Below, one piece after another: positions 46,660 through 57,593 of a stretch of DNA of 64,000 bases. Where the stretch lies: positions 2,914,001-2,978,000 of the forward strand of contig NZ_AP022576.1 in the NCBI RefSeq assembly GCF_010730355.1. Reading direction: 5' to 3'. Within the stretch, counting starts at the first letter, position 1, and the number at the start of each line of letters is the position of its first letter. Under the pieces are notes generated by a model. That model made no database searches, was not told the origin of the DNA, and saw nothing but the letters and a program-made list of their open reading frames with translations. Source of the stretch: Mycobacterium florentinum (GTDB taxonomy: Bacteria > Actinomycetota > Actinomycetes > Mycobacteriales > Mycobacteriaceae). A program made the translations under genes and the position numbers.

Positions 46660-48833
46660 CGGATCCCGGCGCGGGGTCCGGACAGCTGACGCTGACCGCC
46701 CGGCTGAACACCTCAGCCGTCGACTCGCGCCGCGGCGTCATCAGGATGCACCCCAATGCCGTTGCCGCCCTTGGTATCCGGGAGTGGGACGCCGTTTCGC
46801 TGACGGGATCGCGAACCACCGCGGCGGTAGCGGGACTCGCAGAGGCAGCCATCCCGGTGACCACGGTGCTGCTCGACGACGTCACGCTGTCCAACGCGGG
46901 GCTGCGCGAGGGCAGCACGGTTGTCGTCAGCGCGGTCACGGTGTACGGCGCGCGGTCGGTGACGCTGAACGGCTCGTCGCTGGCCATCCAATCGATCACC
47001 TCGGCCACCCTGCGTCAGGCGCTGCTCGGCAAGGTGATGACGGTAGGCGATGCGGTGTCGCTGCTGCCCCGCGATCTCGGCCCGGGCACCTCGACATCGG
47101 CGGCCAGCCGGGCGCTGGCATCGTCGGTCGGGATCAGCTGGACCTCGGAGCTGCTCACGGTCACCGGCGTGGATCCCGACGGACCGGTGAGCGTGCAGCC
47201 GAACTCGCTGGTCTCCTGGGGCGACGGGGTTCCGGTGGGCACCAGAGCACCTCGGCCGCAACCGGTGGCCGTCGCCGATCCCGCCATCCATGTCGACGAT
47301 CTCAAGGGTTCCCAGGTGCAGGCCGGCAAGCTCAGCGAATGGCTCAAGCTGGCCCTCGACGAACCACACCTGCTTCAAACCCTGGGCGCCACCACGAATT
47401 TGGGCGTGCTGGTCTCGGGTCCGGCCGGTGTCGGCAAGACGACGATGGTGCGCGCGGTGTGTGCGGGCCGCCGGCTGGTCCAACTCGACGGCCCGGAGGT
47501 GGGCGCACTGGCGGCCGAAGACCGGCTCAAGACTGTGGCTGCCGCGGTGACCGCGATTCGCGACGGCGGCGGCGTACTGCTGATCACCGACGCCGACGCG
47601 CTGCTGCCGGCGACCGCCGAGCCGGTGGCCGCCCTGATCCTCGCCGAGCTACGCACCGCGGTGGCCACCGACGGCGTGGCGTTGATCGCCACGTCCGCGC
47701 TCCCCGACCAGCTCGACCCGCGGCTGCGCTCCCCCGAGCTGTGCGACCGCGAGCTCGGCTTGCCGCTGCCCGACGGCGCGACCCGCAAGGCGCTGCTGGA
47801 GACGATATTGAAGTCGGTGCCCACCGGCGAGCTGAACCTGGATGAAATCGCCGTCCGTACACCGGGTTTCGTTGCCGCCGATCTGGCCGCACTGGTGCGG
47901 GAGGCGGCGCTGCGAGCGGCATCGCGGGCCAGCGCCGACGGCCAGCCACCGAAGCTGAACCAGGACGATCTCGTCGGCGCGCTGTCGGTCATCCGGCCGC
48001 TGTCCCGCTCGGCCAGCGAGGAGCTGACCGTCGGCAACGTGACGCTCGACGACGTCGGCGACATGGTCGAAGCCAAGCAGGCGCTGACCGAAGCGGTGCT
48101 GTGGCCGCTGCAGCATCCCGACACCTTCGCGCGCCTCGGTGTCGATCCACCCCGCGGAGTGCTGCTCTTCGGGCCGCCCGGCTGCGGCAAGACCTTTGTG
48201 GTGCGGGCGCTGGCGAGCACCGGGCAGCTGAGCGTGCATGCGGTCAAAGGTTCCGAGCTGATGGACAAATGGGTGGGCGCCTCCGAGAAAGCGGTCCGCG
48301 AATTATTCCGGCGGGCAAGGGATTCCGCGCCCTCGCTGATGTTCCTCGACGAGATAGACGCGCTGGCACCGCGGCGTGGGCAGAGCTTCGACTCGGGCGT
48401 CACCGATCGGGTAGTGGCCGCGCTGCTCACCGAACTCGACGGCATCGACCCGCTGCGCGACGTCGTGGTGCTGGGCGCCACTAACCGGCCCGATCTGATC
48501 GATCCGGCGCTGCTGCGCCCGGGGCGCCTGGAGCGGCTGGTGTTCGTCGAGCCGCCCGACGCGGCCGCCCGCCGCGAAATACTGCGGACCGCAGCCAAAT
48601 CCATTCCGCTAAGCGCCGATGTCAATCTCGACGACATCGCCGCCGAACTCGACGGCTACAGCGCCGCGGACTGCGTCGCCCTGCTGCGCGAGGCCGCGCT
48701 TACCGCGATGCGGCGCTCCATCGACGCCGCCGATGTGACCGGCGCCGACCTGGAAGCGGCCCGCAAAACCGTGCGGCCCTCGCTGGACCCCGTTCAGGTG
48801 GAGTCGCTACGCGCGTTCGCCAAAGCCGTCTAG
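46656..48833 (+). CDS. Tandem AAA ATPase, Cdc48/p97-like (Rv0435c-like)
   Basis: A 725-aa protein with an N-terminal double-psi barrel-like region and two AAA modules. D1 has Walker A GPAGVGKT at 255-262 but its Walker B reads LLITDADAL, lacking the catalytic Glu. D2 is canonical, with Walker A GPPGCGKT at 506-513, Walker B LMFLDEIDAL, and ATNRPDLIDPALLRPGRLERL with sensor and arginine finger. It probably unfolds or remodels a protein. Coupling to psd-pssA is conserved with M. tuberculosis and suggests a link to membrane lipid synthesis (inference). Confidence 0.92.
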   Translation: MTDPGAGSGQLTLTARLNTSAVDSRRGVIRMHPNAVAALGIREWDAVSLTGSRTTAAVAGLAEAAIPVTTVLLDDVTLSNAGLREGSTVVVSAVTVYGARSVTLNGSSLAIQSITSATLRQALLGKVMTVGDAVSLLPRDLGPGTSTSAASRALASSVGISWTSELLTVTGVDPDGPVSVQPNSLVSWGDGVPVGTRAPRPQPVAVADPAIHVDDLKGSQVQAGKLSEWLKLALDEPHLLQTLGATTNLGVLVSGPAGVGKTTMVRAVCAGRRLVQLDGPEVGALAAEDRLKTVAAAVTAIRDGGGVLLITDADALLPATAEPVAALILAELRTAVATDGVALIATSALPDQLDPRLRSPELCDRELGLPLPDGATRKALLETILKSVPTGELNLDEIAVRTPGFVAADLAALVREAALRAASRASADGQPPKLNQDDLVGALSVIRPLSRSASEELTVGNVTLDDVGDMVEAKQALTEAVLWPLQHPDTFARLGVDPPRGVLLFGPPGCGKTFVVRALASTGQLSVHAVKGSELMDKWVGASEKAVRELFRRARDSAPSLMFLDEIDALAPRRGQSFDSGVTDRVVAALLTELDGIDPLRDVVVLGATNRPDLIDPALLRPGRLERLVFVEPPDAAARREILRTAAKSIPLSADVNLDDIAAELDGYSAADCVALLREAALTAMRRSIDAADVTGADLEAARKTVRPSLDPVQVESLRAFAKAV

Positions 48834-49415
48834 CACCGCACGCACCGACACCGCCACATCGGCCTCCAGCCAGGACGGCATCGGCTCGTCGCGGGCGTGG
48901 CGGCGCACGACGGCATAGGGCAGGTCGACGATCGCGCGGGCGACGGCATCGACGGATCGGGAATCCTTGCGGCCATATAGCTTTCGGGCCAGCACCCCGA
49001 CCCTTTCGGTCAGCGGCGCGTTCATCGCGGCGACGGTCTCCTGAAATTTCGCGTCGGGCTCCTCGTCGAGCAGATCGGCCGGACGGATGGTCAACAGCAG
49101 CCGGGCATCCTCGGGAAGCTCACGCGCGAAGCTGATCGAGGCAACGGCCATCGCGACCGCGGTGTCGGCCGGCGTAGCCGCCGCGTCGGCTTCTGAGGCC
49201 GCCATCGCCCGGGACTGGAAACGCTCCAGTGCGCGCAGCCACGCCGCCGCCAGAATGCCGTCGCGGTTGCCGAAGCGGTGATACAGCGTGCCGGCCGGCG
49301 CGCCGCTGGATTTCGCGATCGCCGCGACACTGGCCGCGCGCGGTCCGCCCTCGAGCACCAGCGCTCGGGCTGCGTCGAGGATCACATCGGTTTCATGCTT
49401 CCGCGGAGGTGCCAT
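48807..49415 (-). CDS. TetR-family regulator
   Basis: A 202-aa TetR protein. HTH PRAASVAAIAKSSGAPAGTLYHRFGNRDGIL lies at about 22-52. It overlaps the convergent AAA ATPase by 27 bp and is divergent, with only 21 bp between starts, from the DUF2867 gene, which it most likely controls. It marks the left edge of the block not found here in M. tuberculosis. Confidence 0.87.
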   Translation of the reverse strand: MAPPRKHETDVILDAARALVLEGGPRAASVAAIAKSSGAPAGTLYHRFGNRDGILAAAWLRALERFQSRAMAASEADAAATPADTAVAMAVASISFARELPEDARLLLTIRPADLLDEEPDAKFQETVAAMNAPLTERVGVLARKLYGRKDSRSVDAVARAIVDLPYAVVRRHARDEPMPSWLEADVAVSVRAVLDGFGERA

Positions 49416-49419
49416 GATC

Positions 49420-49450
49420 TAGTACATTCCTTCTATATGGAACGGTTACC
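49420..49450. promoter_or_regulatory. Operator-like dyad between TetR and DUF2867 genes
   Basis: TTCC-N8-GGAA (within ACATTCC...GGAACGG) spans the 21-bp gap and the DUF2867 start codon. With so little room, both genes must share this site. A similar TTTCC-CTATA-GGAAA lies before the gene at 57593. Confidence 0.45.
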
Positions 49451-50255
49451 CTATATCGATGAGCATGCCATAACAGTCGACGCGAATCGCGCAGAAACGT
49501 GGTCGGCACTGCTGCGGGTGATGTGTCGCGACCCGCACGACCCGGCCACCGTGCCAATCGGTTTCGTGCTCGACGAAGCACGCGAGCCCGAACGTCTCGC
49601 GCTCAAGGGCCGCCACCTGTTCGCGGTCTACCGGTGGGTGTTCGAGTTGGACACCGACGCCGCCGGCCGAACCCGGGTGCGCGCGACCACCTGGGCGGCC
49701 TTCCCGGGCGTGCACGGAAAGATCTATCGCGCCCTGGTCATCGGCACCGGCGCCCACCGGGTGGTCACCCGCCGGACGCTGAAACACATTGCGGCCGCGG
49801 CACTCACCGCACAGGCCGAGACCGGCCAGACCGCGTCCGACTACACCGACGTCTTCGAAGTCGGAATCGGGCCCGGCGATGTGCGCACCGCCGAGCAGAT
49901 GTTTCGCGACGCGCTCGGCAGTGAACGGGGCGGAGGCGCGGTGCTCTGGATCCATCGTCGCGTCTTGCGATTCCAGCTGGGCCCGCATCCCTCGCCCGAT
50001 CACCTGATCGGCTGGCCGATCGTGCATTCGGATCCCGACGAGCTCGTGCTGACGACGAGCGGGCCGCTGATGCGCGGCGAGCTGACGCTGCGACGCCAGG
50101 ACGGTCGGCGCGCCACGCTCACCACGCGCGTGCACTATCACCGCAGAGCCGCCTGCGTGGTCTGGGCCGTGATCGGCCCGCTGCATCGGGTCGTGGCACC
50201 GCGGCTGATGGCGCGCGCCGCCCATCCCGGCCAACGACGGACAGTGGCGACATGA
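49437..50255 (+). CDS. DUF2867 protein
   Basis: A 272-aa protein resembling the DUF2867 / SRPBCC-like family, which occurs free or fused to SDRs. Aromatic blocks FAVYRWVFELD, VRATTWAAFPGVHGKIYRALVIGTGAHRVV fit a START-like lipid-binding pocket. Function unknown. The ATG is only 21 bp from the divergent TetR start, so it is either leaderless or starts later. The next 286 bp hold no gene. Confidence 0.72.
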   Translation: MERLPYIDEHAITVDANRAETWSALLRVMCRDPHDPATVPIGFVLDEAREPERLALKGRHLFAVYRWVFELDTDAAGRTRVRATTWAAFPGVHGKIYRALVIGTGAHRVVTRRTLKHIAAAALTAQAETGQTASDYTDVFEVGIGPGDVRTAEQMFRDALGSERGGGAVLWIHRRVLRFQLGPHPSPDHLIGWPIVHSDPDELVLTTSGPLMRGELTLRRQDGRRATLTTRVHYHRRAACVVWAVIGPLHRVVAPRLMARAAHPGQRRTVAT

Positions 50256-50488: not shown

Positions 50489-50502
50489 TGCAGTAAACTG
50501 CA
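50489..50502. promoter_or_regulatory. Palindromic operator before the luxE-like gene
   Basis: TGCAGT-AA-ACTGCA has perfect 6-bp arms. A further half-site TACTGCA lies at 50514-50520. Both sit where the -35 region of the leaderless promoter (TACTAT, 50530-50535) would be, so a bound TetR protein would block it. The TetR gene at the end of the operon is the natural candidate. Confidence 0.6.
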
Positions 50503-50529
50503 TTCTTGCGTTCTACTGCACCAGATGCC

Positions 50530-50535
50530 TACTAT
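50530..50535 (+). promoter_or_regulatory. Leaderless -10 box of the lux-like operon
   Basis: TACTAT matches TANNNT and ends 6 nt before the ATG at 50542. This chooses that ATG over earlier in-frame starts such as 50506. Confidence 0.55.
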
Positions 50536-50541
50536 GACCCG

Positions 50542-51972
50542 ATGACGACTACGGCAGCGCGGCCGGTGACCGAGTTCATGAACGACCCGATCGGCTTCTT
50601 CGGCCAGTCCTACACCCGGATGCACAGCATCGGTCGCGACGAGCTCGAAGAGCTGCAACGCGAGGCCATGGGTATCCGGTTTCGCGAGCACTACGAGCGC
50701 ATCGAGATGCTGCGCAAACTGGCCGACCGGCTCGGCATCAAGGAACTCAATCAATTCAATGATGTGGTGCCGCTGCTGTTCTCGCACACCACGTTCAAGT
50801 CGTACCCGGCCGCACTGGTCGACAAGAAGCGCTTCGACCTGATGACCAAGTGGCTGGACAAGCTCACCAGCTACGACCTTTCGGGCGTGGATACCAACGG
50901 CTGCAACGGGATTGACGACTGGATCGACCGGCTCGATGCGCAGACTCCGCTGGAGGTGATCACCTCCAGCGGCACCACCGGCACCATCTCGATCCTGCCC
51001 AAGGACAAACGCGGCGCCGAGCAGGGCATGACGCTGTGGAAGATCTGCCTGTTTCAGACCTTCGGCCACGAACCCACCGACGCCGAACTCAACCCGGTCG
51101 TGGACGTGGTGTGGCCGAACTTCGCCAGCGGCAAGCTCGGCCACCTGCGCATTGCCAACATGATCAAACGCGGCTTCACCGGTGGCGACGAGAGCCGGTT
51201 TCATGCGCTCTACCCGGGCGCGGTCGACACCGACCTGATGTTTCTGGCCTCCAAGATGCGCGCCGCGGCGTCGCGCGGCGAGCTGGACCGGCTGGAGATC
51301 GACCCGGCGCTGGCCGCCCGCAAGGACGAATTCATCGCGATGCAGGCGCGCCAGGCCCAGGACACCGAGGCGTTTTTCACCCGCCTGACCGAACAGCTGC
51401 GCGGCAAACGGGTCTTCATGACCAGTGCCTTCGGCCAGATGTACGACATCGCCAGGGCAGGCCTGGACCGCGGCGTGCGCAACGTGTTCGCCCCCGACTC
51501 GGCGATCCTCACCGGCGGGGGCATGAAAGGCGTTGTGCTACCTGATGATTTCATGGAGGTTATCCAGGAGTTCCTCGGTGTCGACCGCATCCAGGTCGGC
51601 TACGGCTTCTCCGAGTCGAGCACCTTCCACTGGGGTTGCAGCGAGGGCCGTTACCACGTCGCACCATGGGTCGTGCCGTTCGTACTCGATCCGGAGACCA
51701 GCGAGCCACTGCCGCGCACCGGCGTGCAGACCGGACGCGCGGCCGTCTACGACATCCTGCTGCGCGCGCATTGGGGCGGCGTCATCTCGGGCGACGAGGT
51801 CACCATCGACTGGGACCTGCAATGCCCCTGCGGCCAGGCCAGCCTCGCATTCGAGCGCGACATCATGCGTTACAGCGAGAAACAGGGTGTCGAAGACGAC
51901 CGGATCACTTGCGCCGCAACACATGAGGTGCACAACGAAGCGGTGAACTTCATGAAGGGCGTCGACCTGTGA
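50542..51972 (+). CDS. LuxE-like acyl-protein synthetase
   Basis: A 476-aa member of the LuxE (acyl-protein synthetase) / adenylate-forming family. The ATP-binding SSGTTGT is at 142-148, and QVGYGFSESSTFHWGC with a CPCG pair at 428-431 follows. LuxE activates a fatty acid with ATP and holds it as a thioester for transfer to LuxC. It is longer than the roughly 370-aa Vibrio LuxE, with an added N-terminal helical part. It overlaps the luxC-like gene by GTGA; the pair forms a plausible fatty-acid reductase. No luxA/B or luxD is present. Confidence 0.83.
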   Translation: MTTTAARPVTEFMNDPIGFFGQSYTRMHSIGRDELEELQREAMGIRFREHYERIEMLRKLADRLGIKELNQFNDVVPLLFSHTTFKSYPAALVDKKRFDLMTKWLDKLTSYDLSGVDTNGCNGIDDWIDRLDAQTPLEVITSSGTTGTISILPKDKRGAEQGMTLWKICLFQTFGHEPTDAELNPVVDVVWPNFASGKLGHLRIANMIKRGFTGGDESRFHALYPGAVDTDLMFLASKMRAAASRGELDRLEIDPALAARKDEFIAMQARQAQDTEAFFTRLTEQLRGKRVFMTSAFGQMYDIARAGLDRGVRNVFAPDSAILTGGGMKGVVLPDDFMEVIQEFLGVDRIQVGYGFSESSTFHWGCSEGRYHVAPWVVPFVLDPETSEPLPRTGVQTGRAAVYDILLRAHWGGVISGDEVTIDWDLQCPCGQASLAFERDIMRYSEKQGVEDDRITCAATHEVHNEAVNFMKGVDL

Positions 51973-53426
51973 TCGCCTACACCGTCCCGCTGTTCTTGCG
52001 GGGAGAGGTGATCACCGACGACCTCGTACCGTTCGATACCCGTATCGGCGCCGCGCAGTTCCAGGCGCCGGACATGAGCAAGTACGTCGAGCGCCTGCCG
52101 CTCAAGAGCCCCGGCGCGATGAGTGACCTCTACGAGCTGAGTTTCGACGAGATCCTGGAAGTACTGGCGGCTTTGGGCGACGCGCTGGACTTCGATTCGA
52201 ACACCCATCTGCAGGAAGCCTACGAAGCCTCGCTGGTGGCCAACGTGCTGCCGGCGGAGATGATGAAGAACAGCTATCTCGTGCTACGGCCGCTGTTTTC
52301 GCGGGACAACGTCACCGAAATCGCCGACAGCCAGGTCGGGCTGGACTACCTCAACGGATGGGTCCCGCACACGTTGCACGACGGACGCGAACTACGCGTG
52401 CGCGCCTTCGGCTCCCGCATGCTGCACATCCCGGCGGGCAACGGCGGATTGGTGTCGGCGGTGACGATCCTGCGGTCGGTGATCACCCGATCCGACGTCA
52501 TCATCAAGGCCCCGTCCAACGATCCGCTCACCGCGATCGCGATCGCCCGCACGCTTGCCGATGTCGCGCCGGACCATCCGATCACCCGGCACCTGGCGGT
52601 CGGGTACTGGAAGGGCGGCGATCTCGAAGTGGAGGAAAAGCTCTATCAGCCCCAGCACATCGAAAAAATCGTGGCGTGGGGCGGGATGGCGTCGGTCAAA
52701 CACGTAACCCGGTACATCCAACCGGGTTTGGAGCTCATCGCGCTCGACCCGAAACGCAGCGCGACGATCATCGGCGCCGAGGCATTCGCCGACGACGACA
52801 CCCTGCGCGAGGTGGCGCGGCGTGCGGCGACCGACATCGGCGTGGCCAATCAGGAGGGGTGCGCCAACGCGCGGGTCATCTACGTGCTCAGCGGAACCGA
52901 CGCCGAGGGCCTGGCCAACGCGAACCGGCTCGGCGAATTGATCTACCACGAACTCGTCTCGCTGCCCGACATCGTCAGCACCCCGCCGCGCTATCCCAAC
53001 CGCGAGTTGCTGGATCATCTCGAGGCATCCCGCATGACCGACGACTTCTATCGCGTCATCGGCGGCGAGCGACGCGAAGGCGCGATCGTCGTCTCCCAAT
53101 TCGACGAGCCCGTCGACTATTCGCCGATGCTGTCGGGCCGCGTCGCCAACATCGTGCCGGTCGATAGCATCGACAAGGTGACCGCTGCCGTCAACGCCTA
53201 CACTCAGACCATCGGCATCTATCCCGAGTCGCTCAAGCGACAGCTGCGAAACACGCTGCCGCTGTTCGGCGCCCAGCGGCTGACCAGCCTCGGCTACGCG
53301 TGCAGTGTCGCGATCGCGATGCCCCAGGACGCCATCGAGCCGATCCGGCGGATGTGCAAGTGGATCGTCGACGAAGAATGCGACCCCACCACGGTCGTTC
53401 CGCTTTGGCAGCTGGCCCGGCAATGA
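51969..53426 (+). CDS. LuxC-like acyl-CoA/acyl-protein reductase
   Basis: A 485-aa long-chain acyl reductase of the LuxC family. The catalytic Cys298 lies in NQEGCANAR, with the aldehyde-dehydrogenase-like NADPH segment LHIPAGNGGLVSAVTILRSVITRSDVIIKAPSNDPLTA. LuxC takes the acyl group from LuxE and reduces it to a fatty aldehyde with NADPH. GTG start, 4-bp overlaps on both sides. Family assignment is firm; the physiological product is inferred. Confidence 0.87.
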   Translation: MIAYTVPLFLRGEVITDDLVPFDTRIGAAQFQAPDMSKYVERLPLKSPGAMSDLYELSFDEILEVLAALGDALDFDSNTHLQEAYEASLVANVLPAEMMKNSYLVLRPLFSRDNVTEIADSQVGLDYLNGWVPHTLHDGRELRVRAFGSRMLHIPAGNGGLVSAVTILRSVITRSDVIIKAPSNDPLTAIAIARTLADVAPDHPITRHLAVGYWKGGDLEVEEKLYQPQHIEKIVAWGGMASVKHVTRYIQPGLELIALDPKRSATIIGAEAFADDDTLREVARRAATDIGVANQEGCANARVIYVLSGTDAEGLANANRLGELIYHELVSLPDIVSTPPRYPNRELLDHLEASRMTDDFYRVIGGERREGAIVVSQFDEPVDYSPMLSGRVANIVPVDSIDKVTAAVNAYTQTIGIYPESLKRQLRNTLPLFGAQRLTSLGYACSVAIAMPQDAIEPIRRMCKWIVDEECDPTTVVPLWQLARQ

Positions 53427-54355
53427 GCGAACGTCGGACCGCGCTGGAGGTCGTCGAGGGAATCGACCTGTCCGGCAAGGCGTGTGTGATCACCGGCGCG
53501 TCGGCCGGCCTGGGCCGCGAGTCGGCACGCGCGCTGGCCGCCGCGGGCGCCCACGTGATCCTGGCCGCCCGCAACCCGGAGGCGCTGGACGAGGCCGCGC
53601 GGTGGGTACGGGACGAGGTGCCGGGCGCGACGACCTCGACGGTCGAACTCGACCTGACCGCACTGACCAGCGTGCGCGCGGCGGCGGCGGCGATCCGCGA
53701 GATCGCGCCGGCGGTGCATGTGTTGATGAACAACGCCGGGGTGATGTTCACCCCGTTCGGCCGGACCCGGGACGGGTTCGAATTGCAGATCGGGACAAAT
53801 CATTTCGGACACTTCGAGCTGACCCGGCTGTTGATCCCGCAGCTGGCCGCGGCCGGGGGCGCGCGGGTGGTGATCCTGTCGTCGGCGGGTCACGTGATGG
53901 GTGACGTGGACTTCGACGATCCGAACTGGGAGCGCCGCGACTACGACAAATTCGCGGCATACGGCGCCGCCAAAACGGCGAACATCCTGCACGCCATCGA
54001 GGCAGATCGGCGGTTGCGCGAGTTGGGAATTCGCGCCTACGCCGTGCATCCCGGTACCGTTGCCACCTCGCTGGCCAGGTATATGTCGCGCGACGACTTC
54101 TCCGACCTTCGCAAACTCGTCGTGGACAACAGCACGCTGCGCGGCGAAACGACCGACGGCCGACTTGACTTCTCCACTCCCGAACAGGGTGCGGCCACCC
54201 AGGTGTGGGCCGCGGTCAGCCCCGAGCTGGCTGATCGGGGCGCTCTGTATCTGGAGGACTGCACGGTCGGCGAGACGGGCGCGGCGTATGCGCGCGACGA
54301 GCAGCGGGCCGCCGAGTGGTGGACCCTGTCCGAAAAGCTTTGCGACAGCGCATGA
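53423..54355 (+). CDS. Short-chain dehydrogenase of the lux-like operon
   Basis: A 310-aa SDR of the retinol dehydrogenase type with TGASAGLGRES, NNAGVMFTPFGRT, IGTNHFGHFELTRLLIPQL and YGAAK. It resembles the SDR at 36885. It could reduce the fatty aldehyde made by the LuxE/LuxC pair to an alcohol, or oxidise an alcohol (inference from operon). Overlaps luxC-like and tetR genes by ATGA. Confidence 0.88.
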   Translation: MSERRTALEVVEGIDLSGKACVITGASAGLGRESARALAAAGAHVILAARNPEALDEAARWVRDEVPGATTSTVELDLTALTSVRAAAAAIREIAPAVHVLMNNAGVMFTPFGRTRDGFELQIGTNHFGHFELTRLLIPQLAAAGGARVVILSSAGHVMGDVDFDDPNWERRDYDKFAAYGAAKTANILHAIEADRRLRELGIRAYAVHPGTVATSLARYMSRDDFSDLRKLVVDNSTLRGETTDGRLDFSTPEQGAATQVWAAVSPELADRGALYLEDCTVGETGAAYARDEQRAAEWWTLSEKLCDSA

Positions 54356-54924
54356 GTAGGCTGGAACGGCGCAAGCTCGAGATGCGGGAGAAAATCCTCG
54401 TCGCGGCGTTCGACCTGTTTCTGGCGCAGGGGGTCGCGGCCACCACGATCGAGGAGATCTGCGAACGCGCCGATGTCGCCAACCGGACGTTCTTCAACCA
54501 CTTCGCGACCCGTCAGGACATGATCCGCGCGCTGGCCGAGCGGCGGCTGGTCAACCTGCACGATGTCGTCTTCGACCGCGCCGACCAACCGATCCCGGCG
54601 CGGTTGATCGGGGTTTTCGACGACATCGGCACGACGCTGGTCAAATCCGGCGACACGTACCGCGAGCTGATCGGCGAGATGCTGGCCACCTCCGGCTACG
54701 GCATACAACGCGGGTTCAACCTGCACGCCACGTTCGGCGAGCTCATCAAGGAAGGCGTCGCACGCGGCGAGGTCGGCACCGGCCACGACGCAAACACCTT
54801 GGCCGACATCATCGTTGGTGCACTCTCGGGCGCCATCGTCAATTGGACGCTCGATCGCACCTACTCGCTGGAAACCAACCTGCACAACCTCGGTGTCGCG
54901 CTGGCCGACCTACTCAAGAGCTGA
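54352..54924 (+). CDS. TetR-family regulator ending the lux-like operon
   Basis: A 190-aa TetR protein. HTH VAATTIEEICERADVANRTFFNHFATRQDMI is at about 27-57. As the last gene of the operon it would give feedback control through the TGCAGT-AA-ACTGCA operator upstream of the luxE-like gene (inference). It overlaps the convergent SMP-30 gene by 11 bp. Confidence 0.87.
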   Translation: MSRLERRKLEMREKILVAAFDLFLAQGVAATTIEEICERADVANRTFFNHFATRQDMIRALAERRLVNLHDVVFDRADQPIPARLIGVFDDIGTTLVKSGDTYRELIGEMLATSGYGIQRGFNLHATFGELIKEGVARGEVGTGHDANTLADIIVGALSGAIVNWTLDRTYSLETNLHNLGVALADLLKS

Positions 54925-55759
54925 GCCGGGCCGCCTCGAGATCGTCGAGCCGGATGCGCAGCAGCGCCTGGCTCTGCGCGGCGGTGACGAACAGCTCGTC
55001 GGCCCGTTCGCCGCCGATACAGATATTGGTGGGTAGCGAACCGGGCGGCAGCGTGATCGCCGCGACACACTCGCCCGCCTCGTCGACGACGTCGACGCGG
55101 TCCGCGCCGGTCAGCGCGACCCAGTAGTCGCCGCGGGCGCTGACGGCCATCCCGTCGGGCCAGCCGTTGACGAACGTGTGCAACAACTCGGGCGGCCCGG
55201 AAGTCGGGAGCGAATACGACAGTAGCCGCGACGAAATTGTCGCCGTGACAAGCAATCTGGTGTTGTCGCGGGAGAAGCCCAGGCCGTTGATGAACACCGG
55301 ACCATCGTCGATGATGCGCTGGGTCGCGCCCGAGGCGACATCGGTCGCATACACATGCCCGGGCGGGCCGGCATCGGGATCGCTGATGTCGAATTCGGCG
55401 CGGGTGTCGGTGATCCATAGCCGCCCGTCGGGCCCGAACATCAGATCGTTGGGGGCGCCCAGACCCTCCACCAGATAGTCGATCCGCGAGCCCGTGATGA
55501 CCTGGACGCCGGGTTCCGCGGAACCGCTTGCGCCCCAGGCGCCGCCGTTCTGGGCGACATACAGGGTGCCGTCGCCGCCAACCGTCAGGCCGTTGGGCCC
55601 ACCGCCGGTCTCGATGCTTTGCACCGGCGCGCCCGCCGGGTCCGCGATGTACACCCGGCCATGGCTGATCGACGTCAGCGCCACCCGGCCGTCCGGCAGC
55701 CACACCGGGCCCTCGGTGAAGCCGAGCCCGTCCGCGATGACGTCGATGCGGGTACTCAC
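54914..55759 (-). CDS. SMP-30/gluconolactonase-like beta-propeller protein
   Basis: A 281-aa six-bladed propeller of the SMP-30/gluconolactonase family. FTEGPVWLPDGRVALTS carries the first metal Glu, GGGPNGLTVGGDG and GAPNDLMFGPDGRLWITDT the Asn, and GWPDGMAVSARGDYWVA the Asp: a full calcium/lactonase site. It probably hydrolyses a lactone. Last gene of an operon with the enoyl-CoA hydratase and LLM genes, joined by a 4-bp overlap. GTG start. Confidence 0.88.
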   Translation of the reverse strand: MSTRIDVIADGLGFTEGPVWLPDGRVALTSISHGRVYIADPAGAPVQSIETGGGPNGLTVGGDGTLYVAQNGGAWGASGSAEPGVQVITGSRIDYLVEGLGAPNDLMFGPDGRLWITDTRAEFDISDPDAGPPGHVYATDVASGATQRIIDDGPVFINGLGFSRDNTRLLVTATISSRLLSYSLPTSGPPELLHTFVNGWPDGMAVSARGDYWVALTGADRVDVVDEAGECVAAITLPPGSLPTNICIGGERADELFVTAAQSQALLRIRLDDLEAARLSS

Positions 55760-56574
55760 GGCTCCGGCAGGGCTTTCCAGTCATGGGACGCCCGCGAAGT
55801 GTATCGCGGGGGCCGCCGGTCGACGAACGCGGCGACGCCTTCACTCGCGTCGGGGGTGCCCATCACGCGGTGGTGCAACTGCGTTTCCAGCGAGGCGACC
55901 TGGCGCGGCGTGTAGCCGTGAATCGCGGTGTCCCACAACAGCCGTTTGCTCAATGCCGCCGACATCGGGGAAACATTGACCGCGATGTCGCGGGCCAGCT
56001 CCAGCGCGGCGTCGAGCACCTGTACGGCGGGCAACGACCGATTCGCGATGCCGAACGCCACGGCCTCCGGCCCGTCGAACGTCCGCCCGGTCAGCAGCAC
56101 CTCGGCAGCCACCGCGAGATTGGTCAGATGCGCCAGCGTCCAGTGCGCCATGCAATCGGGTATCACTCCCCGGCGCACCTGCACCACACCATATTTGGCG
56201 TCCTCGGCGAGGATGCGAATATCGGCCTGCAGCGCGATGGTCAGCCCGATTCCGATGGCGTGGCCGTTGACGGCGGCGATCACCGGTTTGCGCAATTCGA
56301 ACGCCGCCGGGTCGATCGGCGATGCGGAGAAGGCCGCATCGTCTCGCGGGCTGTCGAACGGTGTTGCACCACCGGAGAAGTCGGCTCCGGCGCAGAACGC
56401 CCGGCCCGCCCCGGTGACGACGATGGCCCGGACGTCGTCGTCCTCGTCGCACTCCCGGTAGGCCCGGCTCAACAACGCGCCCATCTCCGCCGTGTAGGCG
56501 TTGAGGTGCTCGGGCCGATTGAGCGTGAGCACCGCCACGCCCGCGTCGACCTCGACCACCAGATCGGCGCTCAT
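55756..56574 (-). CDS. Enoyl-CoA hydratase/isomerase family protein
   Basis: A 272-aa crotonase-fold protein with GAGRAFCAGADFSGG and NGHAIGIGLTIALQADIRI at the two oxyanion-hole loops, and AKYGVVQVRRGVIPD in the second catalytic region. The usual second-site Glu is replaced by an Arg-Gly pair, so the reaction is uncertain. ATG at 56574 overlaps the LLM stop; a longer frame to 56706 lacks family similarity. Confidence 0.87.
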   Translation of the reverse strand: MSADLVVEVDAGVAVLTLNRPEHLNAYTAEMGALLSRAYRECDEDDDVRAIVVTGAGRAFCAGADFSGGATPFDSPRDDAAFSASPIDPAAFELRKPVIAAVNGHAIGIGLTIALQADIRILAEDAKYGVVQVRRGVIPDCMAHWTLAHLTNLAVAAEVLLTGRTFDGPEAVAFGIANRSLPAVQVLDAALELARDIAVNVSPMSAALSKRLLWDTAIHGYTPRQVASLETQLHHRVMGTPDASEGVAAFVDRRPPRYTSRASHDWKALPEP

Positions 56575-57593
56575 CGTCGGGCGGGGGTCCGGTGCAGGGC
56601 GTCGATCAGTGCGGCGAGGTCCGCGCTCGGTGGCGTGTAGCCAGGGAAGTAGCAACACACTTCGTCGACGCGATCGCCGAACCGCTCGGCGATCTGCTGG
56701 GCACACTGCTGCGGAGTTCCGACGATCCCGATCCGCGCCACCATGTCGTCGGTGATCAGGGCGCGCATCTCGGCGAAGCGGGCCTGCTTGGACAGCGCGT
56801 TGAGTTCCGGCTGCAGCTCCGCGGAGCCCTCGACCTCGAGCACCGGCAGGTAGGCCGGGGTCGAGCCGTAGAACGCGATCAACGAGGAGACGCCGTTGAC
56901 GGCGGCGGCCAGGTCCGTCTCGTTGCTGCCCACCGCGACCATGGCCTGGGCGATCACCGGAAAGTCGCCGGCCTTTCGATCCGAACGGCGCAGTCCCTCG
57001 TTGATCGCGGGGATGGTGCGCTCGGCGAAGTGGCGGGTGCTGTTGAACGGCATGACCAGCAGGCCGTCGGCGACTTCGGCCGCCGTGCGCGTCATGATCG
57101 GGCCGAGTGCCCCCATCAACACAGGGGGCGGCCCGAACGGGTTGGGGCCCGGGTTGAAGTTGGGCGTCATCAGGGTGTGGGTGAAGAACTCACCGCGAAA
57201 GTTCAGGGGGGACTGGCCTTCCCACGCCGCGAATATCGCCTTGATCGCCGCGATCGTTTCGGCCATCCGCGCCGCCGGCCGATCCCACGTGCTGCCGTAG
57301 CGCTTTTCGATGTGAACCTTGATCTGCGAGCCCAGCCCGAGCCGAAATCTGCCGCCGCTGAAGACCTGCAGATCGTAGGCAGCGTGCGCCATGTGTATCG
57401 GACTGCGGGGCGCGGCGATCGCGACGTTGGTCATCACGTCCAGGCTGGTCTCGTTGGCCGCGACGATCAGCGGGAAGAACACGTCGTGCGGGCCCTCGAA
57501 GGTGAACAGGCCGTCCGCGCCGGCCTCGGCGATCTCGGCCGCACTTGCCGACGCCTCGGTCGGCGATCCGTTGACTTGCAGATGTACTTTCAC
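56571..57593 (-). CDS. Luciferase-like (LLM) F420- or FMN-dependent oxidoreductase
   Basis: A 340-aa TIM-barrel protein of the luciferase-like monooxygenase family, closest in look to the actinobacterial F420-dependent group (AAPRSPIHMAHAAYDLQVFSGGRFRLGLGSQ, RMAETIAAIKAIFAAWEG, FVIGTPQQCAQQIAERFGD-like end). It is not a LuxA/LuxB orthologue. Substrate unknown. GTG start; first gene of the LLM / hydratase / SMP-30 operon. An operator-like palindrome lies 25 bp upstream. Confidence 0.87.
   Translation of the reverse strand: MKVHLQVNGSPTEASASAAEIAEAGADGLFTFEGPHDVFFPLIVAANETSLDVMTNVAIAAPRSPIHMAHAAYDLQVFSGGRFRLGLGSQIKVHIEKRYGSTWDRPAARMAETIAAIKAIFAAWEGQSPLNFRGEFFTHTLMTPNFNPGPNPFGPPPVLMGALGPIMTRTAAEVADGLLVMPFNSTRHFAERTIPAINEGLRRSDRKAGDFPVIAQAMVAVGSNETDLAAAVNGVSSLIAFYGSTPAYLPVLEVEGSAELQPELNALSKQARFAEMRALITDDMVARIGIVGTPQQCAQQIAERFGDRVDEVCCYFPGYTPPSADLAALIDALHRTPARR

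Follow-up and report, generated by a model that had tools for sequence, protein, structure and literature searches.

Luminous LuxE holds its acyl group on Cys364, close to the C-terminus, and the acyl-acceptor Cys286 of LuxC sits in the sequence YDQQACFSTQ (PMC8301110). GriC and GriD of Streptomyces griseus convert an aromatic acid to the aldehyde in grixazone biosynthesis (PMC10179220), the single-chain carboxylic acid reductase (CAR) of mycobacteria is a multi-domain protein (PMC9609965), and the mel2 locus of Mycobacterium marinum has been compared with the lux genes, with no clear LuxE homologue and a LuxC similarity of MelK at the domain level only (PMC1793995). We describe a four-gene operon of Mycobacterium florentinum, located in a 64,000-nucleotide stretch (the window) of its single-contig, 6.22-Mb genome (NZ_AP022576.1, positions 2,914,001 to 2,978,000). 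The operon encodes a LuxE-like protein, a LuxC-type reductase, a short-chain dehydrogenase/reductase (SDR) and a TetR-family regulator. Judged from their sequences, the first two most likely form an ATP- and NADPH-dependent carboxylic acid reductase.

The luminous LuxC-LuxE system, represented by the Photobacterium phosphoreum complex (PDB 7xc6), shares with this locus the LuxC fold with its acyl cysteine and the adjacency of the two genes, and luminous LuxE is likewise of the adenylating type, with a C-terminal cysteine and without the C-terminal domain of PaaK-type ligases. In contrast to lux, the M. florentinum set has four genes without luxA, luxB or luxD, its LuxE-like gene comes first and overlaps luxC, its LuxE branch falls below the model cut-offs, and it has its own TetR and a tandem operator. 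Single-chain CAR has a carrier domain; the same net reaction is expected of the LuxE-like/LuxC pair, here divided between two separate open reading frames with Cys457 of the LuxE-like protein in the putative carrier role, and a Pfam scan of the operon proteins gave no carrier-domain match. The mel2 locus resembles ours in being mycobacterial, compared with lux, and endowed with a luciferase-superfamily protein. GriC/GriD, likened here by function and from its published description, is also a free-standing adenylating and reducing pair acting on a carboxylic acid (PMC10179220), but it is part of an antibiotic cluster.

The four genes follow one another through 4-bp overlaps (GTGA, ATGA and ATGA, in order), and both their positions and these joins agree with an earlier reading made from the sequence alone (Table 1). 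The LuxE/LuxC overlap is 4 bp in 12 of 14 loci (the window and 11 orthologues) and a single base in the other two, both from a more distant clade. Scans for internal promoters returned none, and the three terminator-like elements found inside the operon, against 2.9 expected, do not rise above chance. Compared with 12 orthologous loci, pN/pS lies between 0.09 and 0.29 for each gene, the broken LuxE and LuxC of M. genavense being entered by their best-scoring piece only; thus all four genes look to be under purifying selection. The operon is flanked by a gene with a LON substrate-binding domain (PF02190) on one side and a CDC48-type AAA ATPase gene on the other. Among named species, M. triplex and M. 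sherrisii come nearest at this locus, with LuxE-like proteins 92% identical to that of the window.

By its sequence, the LuxC protein is a clear member of PF05893 (119.4 bits, cut-off 21), scoring 127.7 bits against the 750 demanded by NF052251, the equivalog model for LuxC of bioluminescence. Cys298 is invariant in 19/19 sequences and aligned with the acyl-acceptor cysteine of luminous LuxC. The protein matches 7xc6_A in sequence at 1e-25, and its structure model (mean pLDDT 81) finds the same P. phosphoreum LuxC as its nearest fold (E 3e-24, with the next at 9e-16), the two being 19% identical in structural alignment. LuxC lies on the same strand within 170 bp of the LuxE-like gene at 77 of 80 genome loci and 3.7 kb and 4.9 kb away at two others; the short contig of the last (L095) holds no LuxC long enough to be of use. 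The two genes are also adjacent in all 15 further loci examined. These are locus counts and not species counts, as L036-L051 and L062-L141 come partly from the same genomes fetched twice. Across 87 loci the LuxE and LuxC distances correlate with r = 0.95 (0 of 2000 permutations), a value that includes shared ancestry and some of these duplicated genomes.

The LuxE-like protein stands nearer to LuxE than to phenylacetate-CoA (coenzyme A) ligases by profile, and is PaaK-type by fold. In a 20-sequence profile its best solved relative is LuxE 7xc6_E (1e-9), followed by a PaaK-type ligase (4e-6). Aligned with hhalign to six PF04443-type proteins, the profile gives E 2.2e-23 over 349 columns and reaches into the C-terminal tail, whereas against four PaaK-type proteins it gives E 1e-15 and ends at column 437, before the PaaK C-domain; with sets this small the E-values are only roughly comparable, which tempers the comparison, and three of the six PF04443-type proteins are close mycobacterial homologues (four further PF04443 loci, L168-L171, were left out). 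That C-terminal domain, PF14535, is present in both PaaK controls scanned and was not found in the LuxE-like protein at E values up to 1. What the tail does hold is Cys457, 19 residues before the last residue, which hhalign places on the invariant C-terminal cysteine (C359) of PF04443-type proteins. All 20 sequences collected by whole-protein searches have this cysteine, and so do 48 of 48 in a wider set that is partly biased, one search pattern having contained the cysteine motif, so that the 20 form the unbiased set. We therefore rejected PaaK-type ligase as the best label, on the profile ranking, the missing PF14535 and the C-terminal cysteine, the fold being common to both. A grouping with phenylacetate-CoA ligases, which the sequence-only reading had named as the result that would speak against it, did not appear by profile, though the fold is PaaK-type; this comparison used profiles and folds, and no tree.

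Relatives of the LuxE-like protein are encoded in 410 of 447 candidate stretches of the genome collection, and in six plasmid records 'hypothetical protein' is the annotation given to all seven copies. A search of plasmid DNA with the operon returned 51 records, none of which covers 80% of it.

Upstream of the operon, the TGCAGT-AA-ACTGCA palindrome reported by the sequence-only reading was borne out, and a second, imperfect operator can be added (Table 1). The 16-base form of operator 1 occurs without mismatch only once in the genome. Operator 2 takes the form TTGCnTnnnnCTGCA in 12 of 15 sequences and deviates at one position in the other three, while the DNA around the operators is poorly conserved (mean column identity 54%). 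The left part of operator 2, TTGCGT (50506-50511), could serve as a -35 element. The TACTAT element has an invariant TAnnnT form in all 15 aligned sequences, window included, and the predicted start of the transcript is the ATG at 50542 or a position close to it; the promoter was not among the hits of a sigma-70 consensus scan. In 8 of the 15 sequences the leader is longer and holds a CGAGG element ahead of the ATG, so the predicted leaderless state would be lineage-specific.

The regulator matches PF00440 (46 bits, cut-off 24). With 28 candidates scored per genome, it was found in 8 of 118 congeners, namely the seven with LuxE and one, G031, that has lost LuxE, and this co-occurrence is good evidence that the TetR serves the operon. 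It is probably a repressor acting at 50489-50520, and feedback control of the predicted pathway by it is possible. The same type of tandem operator precedes LuxE in 11 loci of a second clade (L072-L082), nine of which carry a relative of the window TetR (TetR8) downstream, divergent or farther off; L075 and L077 have no TetR8 match in their stretch. The best operator site of L080 has four mismatches, as do chance sites in the unrelated L102, L103 and L120. A different, TTAAAACAnCnnnGGTGTTTTA-like palindrome lies upstream of LuxE at L085 and L087-L090. Another TetR subfamily, TetR25, is found near four of these five loci (L090 has no TetR25 match) and also in L072, L075, L078 and L079, which all have the TGCA operator type. 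A swap of regulator and operator on the same enzyme pair is possible at L085 and L087-L090. We do not claim a perfect pairing of TetR and operator, from which L075, L077, L080, L090 and the distribution of TetR25 depart.

Table 1. Positions of the operon, its regulatory elements and the convergent genes in the window (numbering from the first base of the 64,000-nucleotide stretch)
Feature	Position	Strand	Remarks
Four-gene block with promoter	50489-54924	+	Palindrome, leaderless-type promoter, LuxE-like, LuxC, SDR, TetR
Operator 1, TGCAGT-AA-ACTGCA palindrome	50489-50502	.	Core TTGCAGTnnnCTGCA (from 50488) in 15/15 sequences, window included
Operator 2, imperfect copy TGCGTTCTACTGCA	50507-50520	.	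18 bp downstream of operator 1
-10 element TACTAT	50530-50535	+	Ends six bases ahead of ATG at 50542
LuxE-like acyl-adenylating / acyl-protein synthetase (predicted)	50542-51972	+	ATG start, stop included, 476 aa; C-terminal Cys457
LuxC-type acyl reductase (predicted)	51969-53426	+	GTG start, stop included, 485 aa; catalytic Cys298
SDR, PRK06196/protochlorophyllide-reductase-like	53423-54355	+	ATG start, stop included, 310 aa; predicted function
TetR-family regulator	54352-54924	+	ATG start, stop included, 190 aa
SMP-30/gluconolactonase-like protein, possible lactonase of the same pathway	54914-55759	-	PF08450, 129 bits
Enoyl-CoA hydratase/isomerase	55756-56706	-	Belongs to the orthologous block
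F420-dependent luciferase-like (LLM) oxidoreductase	56571-57593	-	PF00296; TIGR03617, 447 bits vs 278; orthologous block

We propose a mechanism that starts from what can be read in the sequences, namely the families, the cysteines, the missing CoA-ligase domain, the LuxE-LuxC pairing, the conserved operators and the co-occurrence of the TetR, and that extends to catalysis, its direction, the role of the SDR, repression and the class of substrate, all of which we infer. Cys457, Cys298 and the family matches together supply the parts for a relay from an adenylate through a LuxE cysteine to a LuxC cysteine. The LuxE-like protein would convert the acid and ATP to an acyl-adenylate and move the acyl group onto its own Cys457, from which it would pass to Cys298 of LuxC and be reduced with NAD(P)H to the aldehyde; the SDR would then probably reduce the aldehyde to the primary alcohol. 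The TetR, bound at the two tandem operators over the promoter, would repress the operon until released by a compound of the pathway. The operon would work with, or beside, the convergent LLM, hydratase and lactonase-like genes, and for the acid handled a cyclic structure of terpenoid or steroid type would be more likely than that of a plain fatty acid. Taken as a whole, this proposal of a two-protein acid reductase with an SDR under TetR control, acting on an acid more likely cyclic than plain fatty, is in our judgement likely to be right. Its core, an acid reductase formed by a free-standing LuxE/LuxC pair and controlled by the TetR, had already been put forward in the sequence-only reading and is well supported by sequence, the activity itself being predicted.

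The genes that follow LuxC in related loci support the direction from acid through aldehyde to alcohol. Among 66 locus clusters, grouped at 85% LuxE identity, a zinc alcohol dehydrogenase follows LuxC directly and in the same run in 11; typing of these 11 as Ahr-like relies on one representative, whose nearest match is the NADPH-dependent aldehyde reductase Ahr (326 bits, below the cut-off of 470). An SDR of the window's group, itself a PF00106 match, follows LuxC in six clusters, of which two represent the window's own block.

SMP30 relatives lie near LuxE/LuxC in 7 of the 66 clusters and LLM relatives in six, one being the window's own block. The genome contains nine SMP30 matches and, among 62 LLM-type matches, three LLMs above the TIGR03617 cut-off, and chance neighbours of both kinds should therefore be uncommon. 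Cytochrome P450 genes are near the pair in 14 of 66 clusters, and a Rieske oxygenase gene occurs at three loci (L085, L087 and L091), the L085 copy being nearest to the 3-ketosteroid 9alpha-hydroxylase KshA (3e-34 to 4qdc). EcKL-type kinases were counted in 4 of 66 clusters, APH-type kinases in six, sulfotransferases in seven and alkyl sulfatases in five, enzymes that act on alcohols or alcohol esters. The LLM, lactonase-like, hydratase and KshA-like neighbours hint at a cyclic, isoprenoid-like acid, an assignment that we make tentatively; a plain fatty acid seems to us unlikely.

Two further claims of the sequence-only reading are affected by these neighbours. A role in fatty-acid, wax-ester or envelope-lipid metabolism gains no support, the neighbours looking instead like those of cyclic-compound metabolism. 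The description of the operon as lacking a luciferase is right for luxA and luxB, and checked against luxCDABE the four operon proteins show no PF00296 match, but a luciferase-superfamily LLM of the F420 type (TIGR03617) lies 1.6 kb beyond the operon and its relatives recur with the pair. A TIGR03617-like LLM gene lies directly upstream of LuxE on the same strand at L091, where it overlaps, and at L085 and L087 (within 100 bp), and a TIGR03857-like LLM gene overlaps LuxE from directly upstream at L043 and on the M. avium plasmid locus L056. One could accordingly picture a dark, F420-dependent counterpart of lux, in which a cyclic acid is converted by the pair to an aldehyde or a reduced acyl intermediate and the LLM belongs to the same pathway; we think this improbable, and against it several relatives retain the LLM gene after losing LuxE and LuxC. 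The M. avium plasmid, pP7a, which is typed as mobilizable and comes from human sputum, holds the F420-dependent LLM (TIGR03857), LuxE-like, LuxC, phosphotransferase and SDR genes in one run within a P450-rich, catabolic-looking region.

Which reaction the pair performs can be read in other ways. Luminous LuxC and LuxE yield long-chain aldehydes (PMC8301110), and a fatty-acid reductase proper would turn C12-C18 acids into aldehydes and alcohols destined for wax esters or envelope lipids. A gene of the wax-ester synthase family about 7 kb from a relative on a Caballeronia plasmid, and the Ahr-like reductases and alkyl sulfatases near other relatives, are in keeping with such a role, but a scan of nine window proteins from around the operon showed no wax-ester synthase or lipid-assembly gene, the genes that recur as neighbours are those for LLM, lactonase-like, hydratase and P450 proteins, joined at three loci by one for a KshA-like oxygenase, and identity to luminous LuxC is only the 19% given above; we judge this account unlikely. 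Run in reverse, the same genes could form a catabolic module in which the SDR oxidizes an alcohol to the aldehyde, LuxC forms the acyl-enzyme and the LuxE-like protein takes the acyl group back or passes it on. The acyl-CoA dehydrogenase, hydratase, thiolase and AMP-binding genes near relatives would suit this, as would the alkyl sulfatase, an enzyme releasing alcohols, upstream in loci such as L124 and L130. We nonetheless consider it quite improbable, reasoning that oxidation needs no ATP-using adenylation partner with an acyl-carrier cysteine, and given the NADPH-dependent aldehyde reductase-like gene after LuxC in 11 of 66 clusters.

The PaaK-type fold would also allow an acid-CoA ligase working beside an independent acyl-CoA reductase LuxC, without a protein-bound acyl relay. 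Against this stand the failure to find PF14535 in a protein whose profile alignment ends before that domain, when both PaaK controls have it, the invariance of Cys457, and a profile nearer to LuxE, and we give this alternative very little credence.

The acid-reductase proposal has its own difficulties. The label 'LuxE-like' holds in the profile comparison but not with curated models, for no Pfam or NCBIfam model reaches its cut-off: the LuxE models PF04443 and NF052244 score 16 and 20.4 bits against cut-offs of 24.9 and 550, the former cut-off being itself unspecific, as a PaaK-type control carrying PF14535 passes it at 27.8 bits. The AlphaFold2 model built from 48 sequences (mean pLDDT 89.5) has as its listed fold matches adenylate-forming ANL enzymes, PaaK-type first, and some structural alignments place the tail helix on part of ANL C-domains; luminous LuxE is not among the 50 matches listed by Foldseek or VIA-align, which excludes nothing. 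LuxC-type enzymes are aldehyde-dehydrogenase-like, and the oxidative direction is conceivable for them. Of 14 related flank regions, 8 keep the SDR but have no LuxE, LuxC or TetR gene, so the SDR is not devoted to the LuxC product alone. The SMP30 gene was not found in the orthologous loci examined, and occurs near more distant LuxE/LuxC pairs; together with the survival of the SDR alone, this indicates a loose tie to the reductase. The convergent genes (54914-57593) contain no operator copy within two mismatches. Finally, the open-access literature, which leaves subscription journals mostly outside, yielded in its accessible parts no assay or treatment of this LuxE branch. These points weigh against the proposal.

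LuxE orthologues are present in 7 of 118 congeners (best piece at least 86% identical), two of them with broken frames; in M. genavense both LuxE and LuxC are broken. The gap between the flanking genes ranges from 19 bp to 11.6 kb in the 33 genomes compared; it is 7.8-9.4 kb in the four genomes that have a LuxE orthologue and both flanks on one contig, and 19-32 bp in three congeners. Genome G110 (L193) retains operon remnants of 72 bp and 59 bp besides the SDR, while G031 (L195) has lost LuxE together with residues 1-304 of LuxC, and its TetR gene is one open frame with about 20 internal residues missing. The ends of these two deletions differ, and the operon was therefore lost at least twice. 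The SDR, hydratase and LLM genes are retained in both scars. A divergent TetR gene and a DUF2867 gene adjoin the operon (window 48810-50252), and both are kept in 10 of 14 flank regions, mostly ones without LuxE and LuxC.

Other genes of these families lie elsewhere. The M. florentinum genome also contains another, distantly related LuxE/LuxC pair (28% and 34% identical; L051:7621-14892, C1 about 4,543,600-4,550,900). Genes for a TetR-like protein and an alpha/beta hydrolase precede this pair, and a nitroreductase gene and two acyl-CoA-dehydrogenase-like genes follow it, an arrangement reminiscent of luxD-E-C plus a flavin reductase; the hydrolase and nitroreductase were typed on relatives in L049 and L048, and the other genes read from sequence. 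A PF04443 LuxE protein is found in other mycobacteria (L054:8071-13632, also L052, L053 and L055), with no LuxC match in these stretches and with aminotransferase-like and transporter-like genes alongside, as judged from their sequences; its C-terminal end in L052-L054 is a conserved Cys-Cys region. On plasmid pLS1-1 of an ant-associated Pseudonocardia strain (L058), a LuxE-like/LuxC pair lies behind a type I polyketide synthase gene, a context in which the pair may make aldehydes for natural-product biosynthesis too.

The operon most likely encodes a two-protein relay like that of luminous bacteria, without light, that carries an acid through the aldehyde to the alcohol, and free-standing adenylating and reducing pairs already have a precedent in GriC/GriD (PMC10179220). 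A large, nameless LuxE-like family thereby gets a testable biochemical role, and the operon offers a clean regulator/operator pair. If the predicted activity is true, mycobacteria would have a second architecture for acid reduction beside single-chain CAR, one useful for biocatalysis. The recurring link with F420-dependent luciferase-superfamily enzymes makes a wider use of lux-type chemistry directly testable, and a dark counterpart of lux, if true, would mean that the association of a lux-like acid reductase with a luciferase fold recurs outside bioluminescence, by way of an unnamed LuxE family.

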